A stretch of 64,000 nucleotides of DNA. Origin: Pseudopyrenochaeta lycopersici (Eukaryota; Ascomycota; Dothideomycetes; Pleosporales; Pseudopyrenochaetaceae). Position numbers and translations under genes: made by a program. Every line of letters begins with the position of its first letter. Within the stretch, counting starts at the first letter, position 1. Location of the stretch: positions 806,001 through 870,000 of the forward strand of contig NHZP01000012.1 of assembly GCA_003313425.1 (NCBI GenBank), written 5' to 3'. The notes under the pieces were generated by a model. It did not search any database. It had not been told where the DNA came from and saw only the letters and a list, made by a program, of their open reading frames with translations. Positions 22,819 through 44,991 of the stretch are shown here, in pieces.

Positions 22819-24197
22819 TCAATTGAAGGTAAAGTTCATAGTGCCATGCGTGTTTTGGGGACTGGCTATGACAGTTCGACCTGAGATTGGGCCGTTAAAC
22901 ACAGCGCCACCGTATGAAGCCTGCAGCGGGGTAGTCTCGTCGTATTGTGGATGTTCTTGAGGCGTTGTGCTGTTGGTATGTGTGTGTTCTTGAGGAGTGC
23001 TACCCGTGTATTGACGTGCTTCAGGGCTACTACCAGTGTGTTGGCGTGCTTGAAAGCTGCTACCATTGGTGTATGGTCGGTTTTCATCAGTATCGCCACC
23101 GACGTATGGTTGCTCTTGCCGGCTATTACCACCAGCGTATCGACGCTCTTCCTGATTACCGCCACTCGCCATTGGCGTACTATCCAGTTCGCTGACGCTT
23201 GAGAGCCTATGTCCACTCTCTTCAATCCACCTTCGCAGCACGCCCCTCACCTGACCGTAGCCAGCATCCCCTCTTCCGGTAAATTTGGTCATTGTGCGGT
23301 GGTTTGCGTTGATGCTGCAGTTATCATATGCAGGCAAAATCGCAGACTCTCGCTCCACAATTTTCCCAATCGTGTCGTTCATCTTGACAGCCTCGTAGAA
23401 GCAGTATATCTTGAGGTTCACACTGCCTCGCCGCAACATCTGCTGGAAGTCTTCTTCAGTCCTTTGCAGGTCTGCAGAACCAGGCTGCAGGTTGCCTAGG
23501 ATGTCACGGTTTGTGCCGCGAAACACATTGACGTATTTGGCTACGGTGCCTCCCCAATTCGCCAACTGCGACCCTCCATGGGGAGTGCCCATGAATATTA
23601 TTCCAAATGTACTAGACACAATGCTCGCCAAGTCTTGTCTTTTGCTGCTGAGGTTCAAGGCTTCCTCACATACCAACCCTCCAAGGCTGTGAGCGACGAA
23701 TATGATTGGTCGTTGGCCAACATTCGCGCGCTGATCGAGGACAGCATACGCCAGCGACTTTCCGTGGTCGTCCAGTCGGTTTGAGCTTGCGATAGTCCAA
23801 AAACGAACCACATCAGCGTCGTATCCAAAAGTCATGATCCGTGCCTGAGGGCAGTCTTGCGAGAGCAGTGCACTCGGCCAGAAGGTTTGGTTCCTGTGAG
23901 TCCAGGTCTTCTCGCGGTTCCCCGTAAGTCCATGGACGAAGATCAGGCTTAAAAATTATGTTCAGTAACAAAAAAAAAATATTGCTGTTGGTGCATCCAT
24001 ACTCAACGGTCGCGTTGGGGGGATCAGCGACGACTCTGATTCCTGTCGGTCCATCCGTTGCGTACCTAGAGTGCCATCAGTATCGGCCCCCAAACCCACC
24101 GAGATACTTACAGCTCACTGTCAATGCCGGCGTCGAGCTCCGTTCTCGCGCCAGAACGAGTTCCCAGTGGGCGCACTAGATTTCGCAAGGAAGGCAT
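22819..24197 (-). CDS. SesB-like alpha/beta hydrolase with C-terminal amyloid-type motif
   Basis: Exons 24197-24112, 24065-24003 and 23947-22819 give 425 residues; introns are 46 and 55 bp with GTAAGT and GTATGG donors. Residues 50-275 are an alpha/beta hydrolase of the DUF676/PGAP1-like lipase type. DLIFVHGLTGNREKTW is the oxyanion strand, VAHSLGG carries nucleophile Ser137, MGTPHGG follows, and NANHRTM carries probable catalytic His266. Residues about 315-387 are a repetitive polar linker with Q-x-R-x-Y-x-G-G-like units of 10-12 residues. Residues 400-425 begin FNGPISGRTVIA and end MNFTFN at the stop. This resembles the N-terminus of the adjacent NLR and the position of amyloid motifs in fungal cell-death effectors. 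Lipid or ester hydrolysis after assembly is the inferred action. The substrate is unknown. Confidence 0.85.
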
Positions 24198-24423
24198 ACT
24201 GGAAATTTCAACGATGACGAAGCCCACGACCAGTATTTACGGTGACAGCCTGATCGAATGCGCTGACATGAGGAGCAGGCTATGTCAATTGCTGCTGACA
24301 TGTGGAGCAAGGCTATGTCAATTGCGGCTGACCTGCAGCCAAGCAAGCTCACATTGCACATGAGTTCTTGTCTTTCTGCCTTCATATCAGCGACACTACT
24401 GCACAGACAATGCGACGGTCAAG
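24198..24423. promoter_or_regulatory. Shared divergent promoter of hydrolase and NLR genes
   Basis: Only 226 bp separate the two ATGs. The region contains two imperfect direct copies of GAGCAGGCTATGTCAATTGC at 24273 and 24305. GCTGACATG or GCTGACCTG occurs three times near 24262, 24294 and 24327. No clear TATA box. Co-regulation of both genes is likely but inferred. Confidence 0.55.
24273..24337. repeat. Direct repeat, two copies of about 32 bp
   Basis: Copies start with GAGCAGGCTATGTC at 24273 and GAGCAAGGCTATGTC at 24305 and continue through CAATTGC and GGCTGAC-type sequence. One base insertion and a few substitutions separate them. Confidence 0.75.
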
Positions 24424-27049
24424 ATGAGTGAGTTCCACGCGCCGATCAACGGTCACATAGCGGTAGCGGGGACCACTACCGCCGCTGGTGGAGTAACCAA
24501 CTTCAACATCAGCTGCCCGCCAACCCAAGGTATGCGCAACATGCGTTCTTAGTTGCACGCTAAATTTCGAAGAGCGAACCATTCGCCCACCATTCTCAAC
24601 TGTTCCATTCGCGCCGGACCCAGACTTCGTCAATCGACCTGAAATCCTCGCATGGGTGCACAACAAGTGCGCGAGACCTGGGGCGCGCGCAGCCCTCGTT
24701 GGCCTTGGTGGCGTAGGGTAACTCAACTTCCACTCGTTGTTCTATGAGAATATGCTGACAGCGCGAAGCAAGTCGGAGCTCGCCATCCAGTACGCCCATA
24801 AGCTTCGCGAGGTTACTCCACGGCCATTTGTTTTCTGGGTTTATGCCAGCAATAAGGCCCGCTTTGAGCAAGCATACAAGGACCTCGCGGACAGGCTTGA
24901 GCTTCCGAAGCGCCTCGACCCAAAAGCTGATGTTCTACAGCTGGTCAAAGACTGGCTGTGCGATGAATCAAACGGAAAATGGACGATGATCTTGGACAAT
25001 GTCGACGATATGGAAACTTTCTTCGGGGCGCAGCAACGGGAGCAGGATGGGGCAACACTGGCTGCATACCTTCCTCAAAGCTGTCACGGATCAATCCTGA
25101 TTACTTCCCGAAATAAGGACGCAGCATCTAGGCTCGCAGGTGGCTACAGTCATGTCAAAGAAGTCTTCGCGCTGGACGAAAGCAACGGCCTGCAGCTTCT
25201 CCGCAACAAGCTCCCAAACATGGCCATTGAAGAGGGCGCGGCAATAGATTTGTTACATGAGCTTGGCTGCATGCCTCTTGCCATCAGTCAGGCCACAGCG
25301 TACATCAACCGGCGAGCGCGCATGACAATAGAGGGCTATTTAAGCGACTTTCGCGCGAGCGACAAGACGCGAGAAAGCTTGCTCAATTGGAGTACACCAG
25401 ACCTCCGCCGAGATGGGAGCGCGTCTGATTCAGTGGTTACAACATGGCAGATATCGTTCGAGCGTATTCGCAGCGAGCGACCGTCGGCTGCAGACCTGCT
25501 TTCCTTAATGAGCTGCTTCAACCCCCAAAGCATTCCAGAGTCGATACTTCGAACGCATGCCAGGGCATCGACAAGCCTGAGCTGTGAAGCTGACTCTGAT
25601 AACGAGTTCAACGAAGATCTTGACATACTACGCTCATACTCCCTTATAACCGCAATAGCTAATAGCGATCTGTGTGAGATGCACCCTCTAGTGCAATTTT
25701 GCACCCGAATTTGGCTATCGTCTATCGGCGCTACGGACCGGTGGCAATGCACATTTATTAGCCTGATGGCAAACGAGTTTCCAGATGGTGCATTTGAAAA
25801 TTGGGTGAAGTGCCAGCAGCTTCTTCCGCATACCGAGCCACTTTACGATACTGAACCGAGCACAGACGAGTCTTTAAAGGCATGGACACAAGTGCTTACA
25901 AAGGCTGCGCGGTACTTGACTATGAAAGGAAGTTATAAGAAGGCGCAAGACATAGTGGAAAAGGCCCTAACAGCCAGGGAGCGTGTATATGGGGTGGATG
26001 ACGAAAGAACACTGGCGACCATGGACATTCTTGGCATTGCGTTGTCATGTCAATGCAAGTATGATGAAGCGGAAAAACTCAATCGGCGAACGCTGGCAGG
26101 GTGTGAGCAGGTGTTCGGATTTGAGCATCCCACAACGTTGTGGAGTGCAAATAATCTAGCAAGTGTGCTGTGGAACCAGAGGAAGCTCGAAGAAGCGGAG
26201 GCACTGTTCCTGCAAACGCTGCATAGTGTTGAGCAGATGCGAGGATTAACGCACCAGCAAACACTAACTTGCGTGAACAACTTAGCGAATGTGCTGAATG
26301 ACCAAGGTAAATTTGGAGAAGCCGAGTCACTGTTCCTGCGAGTGCTCCACGTGTATGAGAAGGAGCCAGGGTTACAGCACCAAGATACGCTCTCATGCAT
26401 GGATAACTTAGCCATAGCGCTGCAGAATCAGTGGAAGTCGGAGGAAGCGGAAAGCCTGCAGCGGACATCGTTGCAAGGGAGGAAAAAGGTGCTAGGGCTT
26501 GAGCACCCGCACACATTAGCAAGCATGAACAATCTAGCGACCACACTGCTAGATCAAGGGAAGTATGCGGAAGCGGAAACCCTGTATCATCAAGCGCTAG
26601 AATTGAGAGAAAAGTTACTGGGGCCGCAACACAAAGATACGTTGTCATCTGTGTACTGCCTCGCTTTTCTTTCACTGAAACTGAAGCGGTACGACGAAGC
26701 AGAATCCCTGTTCCAACGAGCGTGCAGTGGCTTTGAACGTCTATTCGGCTCGCAGCACGCAATGGTCCTTGCGTGCCGCAACGACATGTCGACTTTACAG
26801 AGTGAAGTAGGGCGTGATCAAAGCCAGCGCCGAGTTGTAAACTGGGAAGGAATTGGACGACAGACCACCCTGACAGAAGATCGGTGGGCACCAACAAGCA
26901 ACAGCAACAAAGTAATTCCACAGTTCGAAGAATCTCTGGTTCATGTTTCTCATGCGAACCATGGATTTGCGTCAGCAAACAACAAGCAGAACGACAAGCG
27001 AAAGTCATTTTTCACGCGCATTAAGGGGAAGCTACGCAGAGAAACTTGA
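24424..27049 (+). CDS. NB-ARC/TPR NOD-like receptor with N-terminal amyloid-type motif
   Basis: Join 24424-24529, 24573-24717 and 24769-27049 gives 843 residues. Exon 1 alone encodes residues 1-35, including FHAPINGHIAVAG and GGVTNFNI, which resemble the hydrolase C-terminus. FAPDPDFVNRPEIL leads into the NB-ARC domain. GLGGVGKS (79-86) is the P-loop, with the second intron splitting Gly84. MILDNVDD (157-164) is Walker B, ITSR (195-198) is the sensor strand, GCMPLA (250-255) is the GLPLA motif and MHPLVQ (388-393) is the MHD-like motif. Residues about 455-760 are some seven 42-residue TPRs of kinesin-light-chain type with A-x-x-L...HP-TL signatures. On ligand binding it should oligomerise and template amyloid assembly of the effector. 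The ligand is unknown. Confidence 0.88.
25880..26790 (+). repeat. TPR-coding 126-bp repeats within NLR gene
   Basis: Successive 42-codon units share features such as GAAGCGGA(A/G) for the E-A-E core and a CAC-x-x-ACA-type H-x-x-T-L segment. Units are diverged at DNA level, so no very recent duplication is evident. Confidence 0.65.
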
Positions 27050-42375: not shown

Positions 42376-43026
42376 GGCCTTTTGTAAACAAGACAGACGC
42401 CGTAATTATGCTGTACCATGGATATTTGGGTTCAACTGAGTCACAGGCGCGCTAGTTTTTGGGCTCTTCTCACTTGCATTTTAAACTCACAAGCAAACAA
42501 TACTATTGTAAGTAGGATCCAACATCAGTAACATCGAATACAATTGTCGTTCGCGGGAACAATTATAATCTCATTCATGGGCTTGTAAATTGAACGGCAG
42601 CCTTGTATACCGAGATAAGAGCCAAATTAGATGGCATTACGGTCCCAATTGAGATTTCCTCCCAGTACGCGCACTGCGAACAGTAAAGGGAACATTATCT
42701 CCTAATTAGTAAATGGGCTGTCCCAAGGTGTATCTATAAGATCGAGTCTAATGAAATTCAAGGTGAGTTACCTTAAAGTATAAAAGGCGCTAGCGTGCAA
42801 CCGCACTTCCTTGAGAAGGATCATCTGATGGACTTTTACTGTCACATGGTGCATGATTACATTTGCACCACAAAGGGCCTGTACAGCGCTTTCTCCAGTT
42901 GCGCTGACTCAGCCACGTGACCTTGATCAGCCTAATCTCAGCCTCGTTGCACTGTCCGTCAAAGTTCTGCCAGCGCTCACGTTTGCATTCTGAACGAACC
43001 GAACAAACCACAATAGGGTATTTTCC
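42376..43026. other. Intergenic region upstream of HET gene
   Basis: About 650 bp. Probable promoter of the HET-domain gene. GGCAGCCTTGTATA occurs at about 42596 and again downstream of the HET gene near 45053, perhaps by chance. Confidence 0.4.
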
Positions 43027-44991
43027 ATGCTTGAAAACTCCCATAGGCTTCCTGCATCTCTCTTAACCATGTCAAAATTCCAAGAAGAATTAAGAGAGCA
43101 GGCTAGCGCCATCTACACCCCGTGCCAGTTCGACAGCAGCTCGGACAATCAGCTCCGGCTAATCTCTTTGCGTCCACCTATATACGCCAACAGTCCTTTG
43201 ATAGGAGACTTAACAGTCAAGCATATAAATGACACTAGCACACGATATACAGCATTGTCCTACGTTTGGGGCGACGAAAACATACGGGAGCTGATAACGA
43301 TCAATGGTGTGGATACTACCATAACAAGGCAGCTTGCAGAAGCACTCCATCGCTTAAGATCAGAAGGAAAAGCTCAGAATTTGTGGGCCGATGCCATCTG
43401 TATAAACCAGTATGATGCAGGCGAGAAGAGCATTCATGTTGCCAAGATGGGCAAAATCTATTCCGGTGCGGAGCGTACCTATCTATGGCTTGGGGAGGAG
43501 GACGAGACCAGCAAGTTTGCAATGAAGCTTGTAGAAAATATTACAGAGGAAAAGGTTCGAAATTTCGACCCCCAAGCTGCCGAGTGGAGGGGTCTTTATG
43601 ACCTTCTTCGGAGGCCTTGGTGGTCTAGGCTTTGGATCATCCAAGAAGCTGTCCTCTCCCCACAGCCGATAATCAAATGTGGGGCACAAGAAGCGCATCT
43701 GAATCTTTTTGCTGATGCATGGTCATACTGGGATTTGTATGAATGGAAGGAAGGATATTTTGAAAAATTCCAGACATTGGACATTTTCCACCAAGTCCCA
43801 TTCATGATGCTCCTGTCGCGAGACACTTCCAAATGGGTTGGCGTCGGATTGAATCCATGGGTAGTTCGTTCGACCGATTTTGAATGCAAATACATGAGAG
43901 ACCGGGTGTACGGGATTCTGAGTCTAGCCGGACCATTCGCAAAGCAATCCATTCAAGTCACATACGACAGGGATCCGACCACGAATGAGTTTGTCAAATC
44001 TGATCACAGGGTTATGCAAGAAGCGGGTGTGGTAATATATCAAGAAGTCGGCGGGCTGATGCCGCTGCTTTTGGCCCAGGAAAGGCATACGCCGTCGCTC
44101 GAGCTTCCATCATGGTGCCCCGACTTTACTCGGGGCACCGAACTCATGAACATAGGAAATCCTATGAAGGGAGCATTTCCGCGGCAGCATTTTGGCGAAC
44201 AAAACTCGGTTATCCGTCCGTGGCATTTGCAGGCAGAGGATTATCAAGTCTCGAGCCTGCAGTCCATTGCACGCTATGCAGGCTGGCAGAGCCGGGCTGA
44301 CTCGGAAAATGACAAAGAAGTCTCAACTTCCTGGAGCAATGATTTCCTATTTAGCGAGGATTCAGAAGTCATGGCAGTCCGCGGCTTTGTTGTCGACAAA
44401 ATAGATTTTGCAGGTGTCACTCCATGGATCCAAGTTGGTCACACTCTAGAGGAGCGGGTCCGCTCTAAAGCAATGCGAGCAGATCTTACACTTGGCGCAA
44501 TTCGAGAATGGGAAAGTCATGTGAAAATGAATAAATTTACATCATATCCTCTTATTGGATGGAAAGAGGCATTCTGGAGAACTCTAATTACGGACCGAGG
44601 GTTGGACTTCGATAAGTCTGCATTGTCGACTGTAGACAGCAGTTGGGAACTATTATTTGATGCATGGTTGGGCAGGGGGAGCAATACAAGGGATGAAAAA
44701 TCAATACTGCAGTACAGGCGGCCCGCGGTAGCCCGGTGCGCCAAACGTGCATTTATTACCACTTCGAATGGGTACTTCGGCCTCGCTCCTGCTATACCAA
44801 CACAGGAAAAAACTCAGGAAGGGGATTTGGTGTGCATTCTGCGAGGTGCTATGTGGCCATGCATATTGCGGGTGGTACCTGAGACTAACTTTTACACCTT
44901 CATGGGGTTTGCTTATGTACACGGAATCATGGAAGGAGAGTTCTTAGAAAAAATAAATGTCGAAGAACTCCGAGAGTTCTGGCTCAAGTAG
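43027..44991 (+). CDS. HET-domain protein (heterokaryon incompatibility), 654 aa
   Basis: Single exon. The first ATG gives MLENSHRLPASLLT; a second at 43069 (MSKFQEEL) has better sequence context and may be the real start. The three HET blocks are intact: YTALSYVWGDEN, then LWADAICINQYDAGEK with VAKMGKIYSGAERTYLWLGE, then RRPWWSRLWIIQEAV. YMRDRVYGILSLAG is the usual downstream element. The C-terminal half ends with DLVCILRGAMWPCILR and GFAYVHGIMEGEF, the typical C-terminal tail of long HET proteins. HET domains are TIR-like cell-death modules used in vegetative incompatibility. No partner gene is adjacent. The decayed HET gene at 18670-20410 is a relative but not a close copy. Confidence 0.88.
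   Translation: MLENSHRLPASLLTMSKFQEELREQASAIYTPCQFDSSSDNQLRLISLRPPIYANSPLIGDLTVKHINDTSTRYTALSYVWGDENIRELITINGVDTTITRQLAEALHRLRSEGKAQNLWADAICINQYDAGEKSIHVAKMGKIYSGAERTYLWLGEEDETSKFAMKLVENITEEKVRNFDPQAAEWRGLYDLLRRPWWSRLWIIQEAVLSPQPIIKCGAQEAHLNLFADAWSYWDLYEWKEGYFEKFQTLDIFHQVPFMMLLSRDTSKWVGVGLNPWVVRSTDFECKYMRDRVYGILSLAGPFAKQSIQVTYDRDPTTNEFVKSDHRVMQEAGVVIYQEVGGLMPLLLAQERHTPSLELPSWCPDFTRGTELMNIGNPMKGAFPRQHFGEQNSVIRPWHLQAEDYQVSSLQSIARYAGWQSRADSENDKEVSTSWSNDFLFSEDSEVMAVRGFVVDKIDFAGVTPWIQVGHTLEERVRSKAMRADLTLGAIREWESHVKMNKFTSYPLIGWKEAFWRTLITDRGLDFDKSALSTVDSSWELLFDAWLGRGSNTRDEKSILQYRRPAVARCAKRAFITTSNGYFGLAPAIPTQEKTQEGDLVCILRGAMWPCILRVVPETNFYTFMGFAYVHGIMEGEFLEKINVEELREFWLK

Follow-up and report, generated by a model that had tools for sequence, protein, structure and literature searches.

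The window analysed here, a 64,000-nucleotide stretch of a Pseudopyrenochaeta lycopersici contig, contains two neighbouring genes that are divergently transcribed. A SesB-type alpha/beta-hydrolase of 425 aa is encoded on the minus strand at 22819..24197 (exons 24197-24112, 24065-24003 and 23947-22819; stop codon at 22819-22821), and an NB-ARC/TPR NLR of 843 aa on the plus strand at 24424..27049 (exons 24424-24529, 24573-24717 and 24769-27049). Both structures are splice predictions made from the sequence, with no transcript seen; in the predicted hydrolase model the introns are bounded by GT..AG and the spliced exons form one open frame. The NLR gene directly adjoins the gene of its candidate effector. 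By measured distance the two start codons are 226 bp apart, and this stretch (24198..24423, no strand assigned) is presumably a shared divergent promoter. An earlier sequence-only reading had placed both genes at these positions, with one motif at the C-terminus of the enzyme and another at the N-terminus of the neighbouring NLR, and the same layout was recovered here.

The hydrolase matches the Pfam family DUF676 above the cut-off (5.6e-06). Its presumed Ser/Glu/His triad is present in 77, 78 and 78 of 78 aligned rows, respectively, and the top solved Foldseek matches are lipases. The protein is predicted to be a lipase-like, lipid-attacking and cell-killing enzyme. In the AlphaFold model an ordered enzyme core is followed by a disordered linker (approximately 22900..23172, minus strand; block mean pLDDT <60), which leads to the C-terminal motif FNGPISGRTVIASPQNTHGTMNFTFN at 22822..22899 on the minus strand. 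Among 32 hydrolases, conservation is 0.80 in the core, falls to 0.12 in the linker and returns to 0.80 in the motif, so that the motif columns are as conserved as the catalytic core. At one motif position 0.97 of the 32 rows agree on a single residue, which is Gly in the hydrolase tails printed; the window hydrolase departs from them with a Ser.

The NLR showed Pfam matches to NB-ARC (2.3e-08), DUF7779 (1e-09) and TPR_10 (8.5e-69), which bears out the earlier assignment as an NB-ARC/TPR receptor. The AlphaFold model of the NLR P0005 is ordered overall, with residues 1-41 mostly at pLDDT <50. The N-terminal motif of the window NLR, FHAPINGHIAVAGTTTAAGGVTNFNI, occupies aa 4-29 (24433..24510, plus strand).

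Alignment of FNGPISGRTVIASPQNTHGTMNFTFN with FHAPINGHIAVAGTTTAAGGVTNFNI reproduced the single gap and the 8 identities (F, P, I, G, A, G, N, F) that had been counted by eye. For the window pair alone this similarity is weak and only marginal: shuffling one motif, within limits chosen by eye, reached the score in 171 of 20000 cases, and shuffling the complete tail and head did so in 408 of 5000. Taken by themselves these values leave room for a chance likeness of two low-complexity termini. Profiles built from relatives gave a different result. A hydrolase-tail profile matched the window NLR motif (14.2 bits for the stretch) and an NLR-head profile matched the hydrolase motif (23.1 bits). When both window sequences were excluded, the hydrolase-tail profile scored the window NLR head at 20.1 bits, compared with 9.2 for the best of 5000 shuffles (4251 of which gave a score). 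The NLR-head profile scored the window hydrolase tail at 29.0 bits, compared with 11.7 for the best of 5000 shuffles (4576 giving a score).

Across the two families, the hydrolase-tail profile matched 38 of 121 NLRs, 35 of them at aa 4-9, and neither the 121 reversed nor the 2420 shuffled NLRs gave a match. The count was again 38/121 NLRs (35 at aa 1-9) when the profile was built from 30 hydrolase tails taken without selection. The linker preceding the motif, used as a profile in the same way, matched none of the 121, and none of 200 column-shuffled profiles matched. Profile-profile comparison of hydrolase tails with NLR heads by hhalign gave a probability of 98.9-99.1. These tests place one short motif at both the NLR N-terminus and the effector C-terminus. 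The shared similarity is real, yet its proof lies in the relatives and not in the two window sequences by themselves. Chance is contradicted by the reversed, shuffled and column-shuffled controls and is extremely improbable as an explanation. The sequence-only reading was to be dropped if the motifs proved no more similar than shuffled controls; the profile controls are clean, and only the lone window pair is marginal.

The motif has a consensus of about 26 residues, F-x-G-x-I-x-G-x-x-V-I-x-G-x(4,6)-G-G-T-x-N-F-N-F. At the cut-off used it is carried by 42/121 NLRs and 50/121 hydrolases, and the NLRs that carry it come from five Pezizomycotina classes. The motif is missing from 18 of the 59 NLRs whose N-terminus is short; seven of the 18 are fragments and five have PP-like heads. 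The two families recur together on five further contigs, matched by identical length (shifted-length control, 0.02), and one of these pairs has the consecutive locus tags GP486_003180/003181. Both motifs are present in three of the five same-contig pairs; in the others, one NLR model is without its N-terminus and one hydrolase model ends differently. The loss of the motif from related pairs, named earlier as evidence against the proposal, was not borne out. In four pairs, the window pair among them, the two partners resembled each other no more closely than motifs taken from different pairs, as 12 of 24 permutations gave at least the observed score.

Single chains with the same kinds of module were also found. 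P0095 reads hydrolase, PP motif, NB-ARC, TPR, and P0087 reads PNP_UDP, window-type motif, NB-ARC, TPR, the NB-ARC scores in both lying under the Pfam cut-off. In the P. lycopersici genome, a hydrolase of the window type on contig C78 continues within a single open frame into a P-loop, as judged by eye. DUF676 hydrolases are an effector type known from fungal NLRs, and a hydrolase domain occurs in these NLR-like single chains. Such fusions would also be expected if the motif were a leftover from the fission of an ancestral hydrolase-NLR gene, now without a signalling role. That origin is very unlikely, as the motif is conserved like the catalytic core while the adjoining linker is not, and NLRs bearing it are spread over the five classes. 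The last 42 residues of P0142, used as a query for other effector types, returned nothing beyond the query itself.

Four motif queries of the genome pointed to three sites, namely the window hydrolase, the window NLR and a second NLR on contig C24. Only the best candidates were scored, and one query missed the C24 NLR, which further searches found. A second motif near this NLR was not found within C24:629000-636897 (loci L066 and L077). PP motifs are present in the same genome at C15 and C96.

The motif was compared with those of known systems. The sequence-only reading had left the family open between sigma-like and a divergent type. In a known-motif search of the window proteins and 32 motif members no Pfam motif model was matched (for the window NLR, among the best 25 of 29 families), and a search of the PDB with the motif profile gave no match. 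Pattern counts were made over 92 motifs, comprising 42 NLR heads and 50 hydrolase tails.

In the PP system (PNT1/HELLP/SBP), a SesB-type lipase or HeLo-like effector with a C-terminal motif adjoins an NLR with an N-terminal copy, and NB-ARC/TPR receptors occur, both as in the window pair. The Pfam model PF17046, named "Ses_B", represents this PP motif and is misnamed according to PMC12261475. The PP core NxGxQxGxN is present in 5/5 in-genome PP motifs and in 0/92 window-type motifs. A relaxed PP-like GxQ pattern was found in 6/50 hydrolase tail segments and 0/42 NLR heads, and hhalign of the window-type motif against a 12-sequence PP-like set gave a probability of 1.1. With PF17046 likewise unmatched, membership of the PP family was rejected.

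The HET-S/NWD2 (HRAM) pair of P. anserina has a similar layout, with divergent effector and NLR genes and the NLR motif at residues 3-23. Its effector is a HeLo protein, whereas that of the window is a hydrolase. HET-s was absent from the Pfam matches of the 32 motif members, the window hydrolase and the window NLR (best 25 of 29 families). Membership was rejected on this comparison with Pfam models. PUASM and GDQN systems have a motif common to NLR head and effector tail, as does the window pair. The PUASM pattern FxGxGxQxxGxGxF was found in 0/92 motifs and GDQN in 1/92. PUASM adjoins PNP_UDP, while the effector here is a hydrolase, and PUASM was rejected as well.

The effector of the sigma system (HET-eN/SESA/SESB of Nectria haematococca; NACHT_sigma, PF17106) is a sesB-type hydrolase, as in the window, and in PMC3321046 sesB homologs adjoin STAND genes with which they have terminal motifs in common. 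Submotif B of sigma is given there as GGTQNINT, and its likeness GGTxN occurs in 28/42 NLR heads and 30/50 hydrolase tails (58/92). The window-type motif might therefore be a short divergent sigma, with a second half derived from submotif B and a first half drifted from submotif A. Nevertheless, submotif A (GxGxQF) was found in 0/42 heads and 0/50 tails, and so was strict GGTQN. None of the 32 motif members matched NACHT_sigma at E 10, a search in which HMMER filters drop weak matches, and no match over the cut-off exists in this genome. Sigma is described as three units (submotifs A, GxGxQFNxx, and B) in about 40 aa, whereas the window-type motif shows one B-like unit in about 26 aa. The within-cluster motif similarity reported there for sigma is also missing from the four pairs analysed here. 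A sigma origin is unlikely; the sigma-like part of the earlier assignment stands for the GGTxN half alone.

NLR34 is an unassigned motif of 28 residues from 29 ascomycete NLRs, with no effector partner reported in the accessible part of PMC9815663. The motif strings were not found in a text search of papers, from which figures and most subscription papers lay outside, nor was the family found in the available parts of PMC9815663, PMC12261475, PMC5485727, PMC8086366, PMC12881547, PMC12258605, PMC4986451 and PMC3321046. On balance, we lean towards a further amyloid-motif family, unmatched in Pfam, not found in the literature examined and widespread in Pezizomycotina. It would form its own channel beside PP, in which the C12 and C24 NB-ARC/TPR receptors signal to one SesB lipase.

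The layout and the conserved shared motif support part of the earlier reading as an amyloid-signalling pair. The divergent genes probably form a system in which the receptor templates the tail of the enzyme into amyloid through the motif and so switches on a cell-killing enzyme. The steps from receptor to enzyme are proposed by analogy with HET-S/NWD2, PP and sigma systems, as are amyloid formation, templating and cell death in this pair. The TPR part of the NLR would bind a ligand, and oligomerization of NB-ARC would bring the N-terminal motifs together. The gathered motifs may then form an amyloid nucleus of beta-arch type, which would template the C-terminal tail of the hydrolase; clustering would activate the enzyme at membranes and lead to lipid attack. 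The second motif-bearing NLR, on C24, may feed the same hydrolase in trans.

The motifs could instead dock homotypically, either by ordinary pairing of beta-strands or as a small ordered assembly, acting by induced proximity with no self-propagating fold. Such docking predicts all of the sequence evidence equally well, including the profile cross-matches and the conservation, and the AlphaFold models of hydrolase and NLR showed no confident beta-arch or other amyloid-like fold for either motif. It is nevertheless unlikely, somewhat more so than a sigma origin, since the architecture and effector class match motif families whose prion or amyloid behaviour is reported in PMC9815663 and PMC3321046.

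Only a few motif families are known in fungal amyloid signalling, and an extra, well-conserved family such as the one favoured here would add peptides for structural and cross-seeding work. If NLR34 (PMC9815663) is the window-type motif, its receptor half has already been listed, without a partner. The GGTxN half held in common with sigma may show how motifs arise from each other. As PP-type loci occur in the same genome, a direct test of the insulation between parallel amyloid channels would be possible.

The window lies at C12:806001–870000 of the 62.7 Mb Pseudopyrenochaeta lycopersici genome. The hydrolase gene (minus strand, 22819..24197) is predicted to encode 425 residues with a DUF676 α/β-hydrolase core, and the NLR gene (plus strand, 24424..27049) 843 residues with NB-ARC, DUF7779 and TPRs (Pfam); two short introns in each come from a splice-model prediction. 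The start codons of the divergent genes are 226 bp apart. The hydrolase ends with the motif FNGPISGRTVIASPQNTHGTMNFTFN, and residues 4–29 of the NLR read FHAPINGHIAVAGTTTAAGGVTNFNI. Named relatives from protein searches are filamentous ascomycetes. A 16-bp exact intergenic repeat (AGGCTATGTCAATTGC, 24277–24325; copies at 24277 and 24310) sits, by eye, within a ~33-bp near-duplicate between the start codons, perhaps a duplicated regulatory site. About 16 kb from the pair lies a gene with a HET (heterokaryon incompatibility) domain (42994–44991).

The eight identities between hydrolase tail and NLR head reported by the sequence-only reading were reproduced. Taken alone, the window pair is marginal, its score being reached by 171/20000 motif shuffles and 408/5000 whole-terminus shuffles; the verdict on chance therefore rests on relatives. 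Both sets (n = 121) comprised the window protein and the 120 listed relatives, of 1665 NLRs and 804 hydrolases found. The motif was detected by at least one profile (E 0.01) in 42 NLRs and 50 hydrolases. A profile of hydrolase tails only matched 38 of the 121 full-length NLRs, 35 starting at residues 4–9 and the others at 25, 54 and 362, and matched none of 121 reversed or 2420 shuffled controls. The NLR-head profile matched 45 of the 121 hydrolases, 42 at most 10 residues from the end, and none of 121 reversed sequences or 2420 shuffled tails; its lone control match was one of 2420 shuffled NLR heads (8.6 bits). Because the seeds of these profiles had been picked by pattern, the run was repeated with a profile of the 30 C-terminal residues from each of the 30 best hydrolases, taken without selection. 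It too matched 38 of 121 NLRs, 35 at residues 1–9, with zero control matches. No NLR of the 121 was matched by a profile of the linker directly before the motif, nor any by 200 column-shuffled profiles. The hhalign probability was 98.9–99.1 for tails against heads, with the alignment spanning the entire motif, versus 0.1 for the linker. By way of the relatives' profiles, the likeness thus exceeds shuffled controls, and the divergent pair with matching termini is a real feature.

NLRs and hydrolases of both families occur together on five other contigs, matched by identical length (a shifted-length control averaged 0.02 coincidences). These NLR and hydrolase relatives are from Zopfia (P0005/P0129), Trichoglossum (P0043/P0137), Tricladium (P0003 and P0094 with P0188), Delitschia (P0001/P0160) and a JGI contig (P0117/P0144). 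Pairing here means the same contig, closeness being indicated for Trichoglossum alone, by consecutive locus tags. Both motifs are legible in three of the five; the remaining two include an NLR model without its N-terminus and a hydrolase model with a different end. Pair-specific co-evolution is unsupported, since the motifs of four pairs were no more alike within than between pairs (12/24 permutations reach the observed score). Motif-bearing NLRs from five species checked belong to Dothideomycetes, Geoglossomycetes, Leotiomycetes, Sordariomycetes and Eurotiomycetes.

The most frequent residue of a column accounts, on average across 32 aligned hydrolases, for a share of 0.80 in both enzyme core and motif, against 0.12 in the linker between them. 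The presumed catalytic residues Ser137, Glu235 and His266 (90, 188 and 219 in exon-3 numbering) are conserved in 77, 78 and 78 of 78 rows; Glu235 is the putative acid because it is invariant. AlphaFold gave a confident core, a disordered linker and a low-confidence motif. In the relative NLR P0005, NB-ARC and TPR were well modelled and residues 1–41 mostly had pLDDT <50. The best solved-structure matches of the hydrolase in Foldseek were lipases (TM-scores ~0.4–0.5). The text of PMC4986451 links sesB-like domains to SERAC1, a phospholipid-modifying protein. By eye, the window linker (22900–23172) contains loose repeats; the protein exceeds 117 of the 120 listed relatives in length, fragments being common among these.

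A search against known motif families was run. The Pfam HET-s, PP and sigma models matched none of 32 motif members at E 10, where HMMER filters discard weak matches; the sole Pfam family listed was DUF5122 (two members), and no PDB chain matched the motif. PP (PF17046) was rejected, its core NxGxQxGxN being present in 5/5 in-genome PP motifs and 0/92 pair-type motifs; a relaxed PP pattern was found in 6/50 hydrolase and 0/42 NLR segments. PUASM was likewise rejected (printed pattern in 0/92), and the GDQN pattern occurred in 1/92. According to PMC3321046, the sigma motif has three units made up of submotifs A (GxGxQFNxx) and B (GGTQNINT). Submotif A and strict GGTQN were each found in 0/92 segments, whereas relaxed GGTxN was found in 58/92. 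Likeness to sigma is therefore confined to the second half, which resembles B, the first half (FxGxIxGxxVIxG) being unlike A. Of the proposal that the motif is sigma-like or divergent, the sigma part holds for the GGTxN half and fails for submotif A and strict GGTQN. Effector-paired motifs reported in the text of PMC9815663 are HRAM, PP, sigma, PUASM and one small PNP_UDP motif; NLR34, a motif left unassigned there, may overlap with the present one. Literature text searches, with logos and supplements outside their reach, returned no published description; within that reach, the conserved motif in a pair of SesB hydrolase and NB-ARC/TPR NLR is undescribed, the kind of system being already known.

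Four motif queries of the genome gave three sites: the two window termini (hydrolase tail and NLR head) and the N-terminus of a second NB-ARC/TPR-type NLR on contig C24 (FYGPIDAHIAIPAPQCGPGGTMNFNF, C24:633858–633968; loci L066 and L077). This tally is the union of queries, none recovering all three, and additional copies could escape detection; cross-matches in two of the queries were weak (E 0.08 and 0.07). No hydrolase relative on C24 was among the matches listed. PP exceeded the cut-off at five places (C15, two; C96, three); these RHIM-like motifs (C15:246581–247762; C96:20860–22457) sit on the N-termini of NLRs and the C-termini of a different type of protein. On C15, the NLR and the protein with the PP tail are encoded divergently, like the window pair. 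NACHT_sigma gave 15 genomic matches at E 10, none above the cut-off.

At the level of sequence, the two genes and their coupling by the motif are established. Their layout and shared motif fit amyloid signalling, a class guessed well by the sequence-only reading, the steps of which we infer by analogy with NWD2/HET-S. Ligand recognition would fall to the TPR part and oligomerization to NB-ARC, which would cluster the N-terminal motifs. Clustered motifs may nucleate a cross-β fold that templates the hydrolase tail, and hydrolase clustering would render the enzyme active on membranes, leading to cell death. The motif might instead be a non-amyloid docking segment coupling the two proteins, which we consider rather unlikely.

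By eye, the same hydrolase family has other terminal variants (QG types, GDQN-like and LQG types; P0163–P0175, P0166/P0176, P0179/P0187 and P0201/P0213/P0215), as if the tail module had been swapped or diversified inside one enzyme family. Among the 121 NLRs, the nucleotide-binding domain (regular-expression anchor) starts within 100 residues in 59, of which 41 have the motif. Inspection of the heads of the 18 without it showed seven fragments beginning at or just ahead of the domain, five PP-like heads (P0010, P0067, P0104, P0113 and P0115) and six of other types. The anchor lies further in for 26 NLRs, one with the motif (P0087), and several long NLRs bear HET or PNP_UDP (Pfam annotation). 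Single chains join PNP_UDP, motif (362–386), NB-ARC and TPR in P0087, and hydrolase, PP, NB-ARC and TPR in P0095, with NB-ARC under the Pfam cut-off in both. Within the genome, by eye, a SesB-type hydrolase on C78 shares an uninterrupted open frame with a P-loop that follows it, and the nearest NLR relative, on C25, has a HET-type head fused onto the same receptor kind. Because head types vary (motif, PP-like, HET, PNP_UDP) on the same kind of receptor, the NLR head looks like an exchangeable signalling module.
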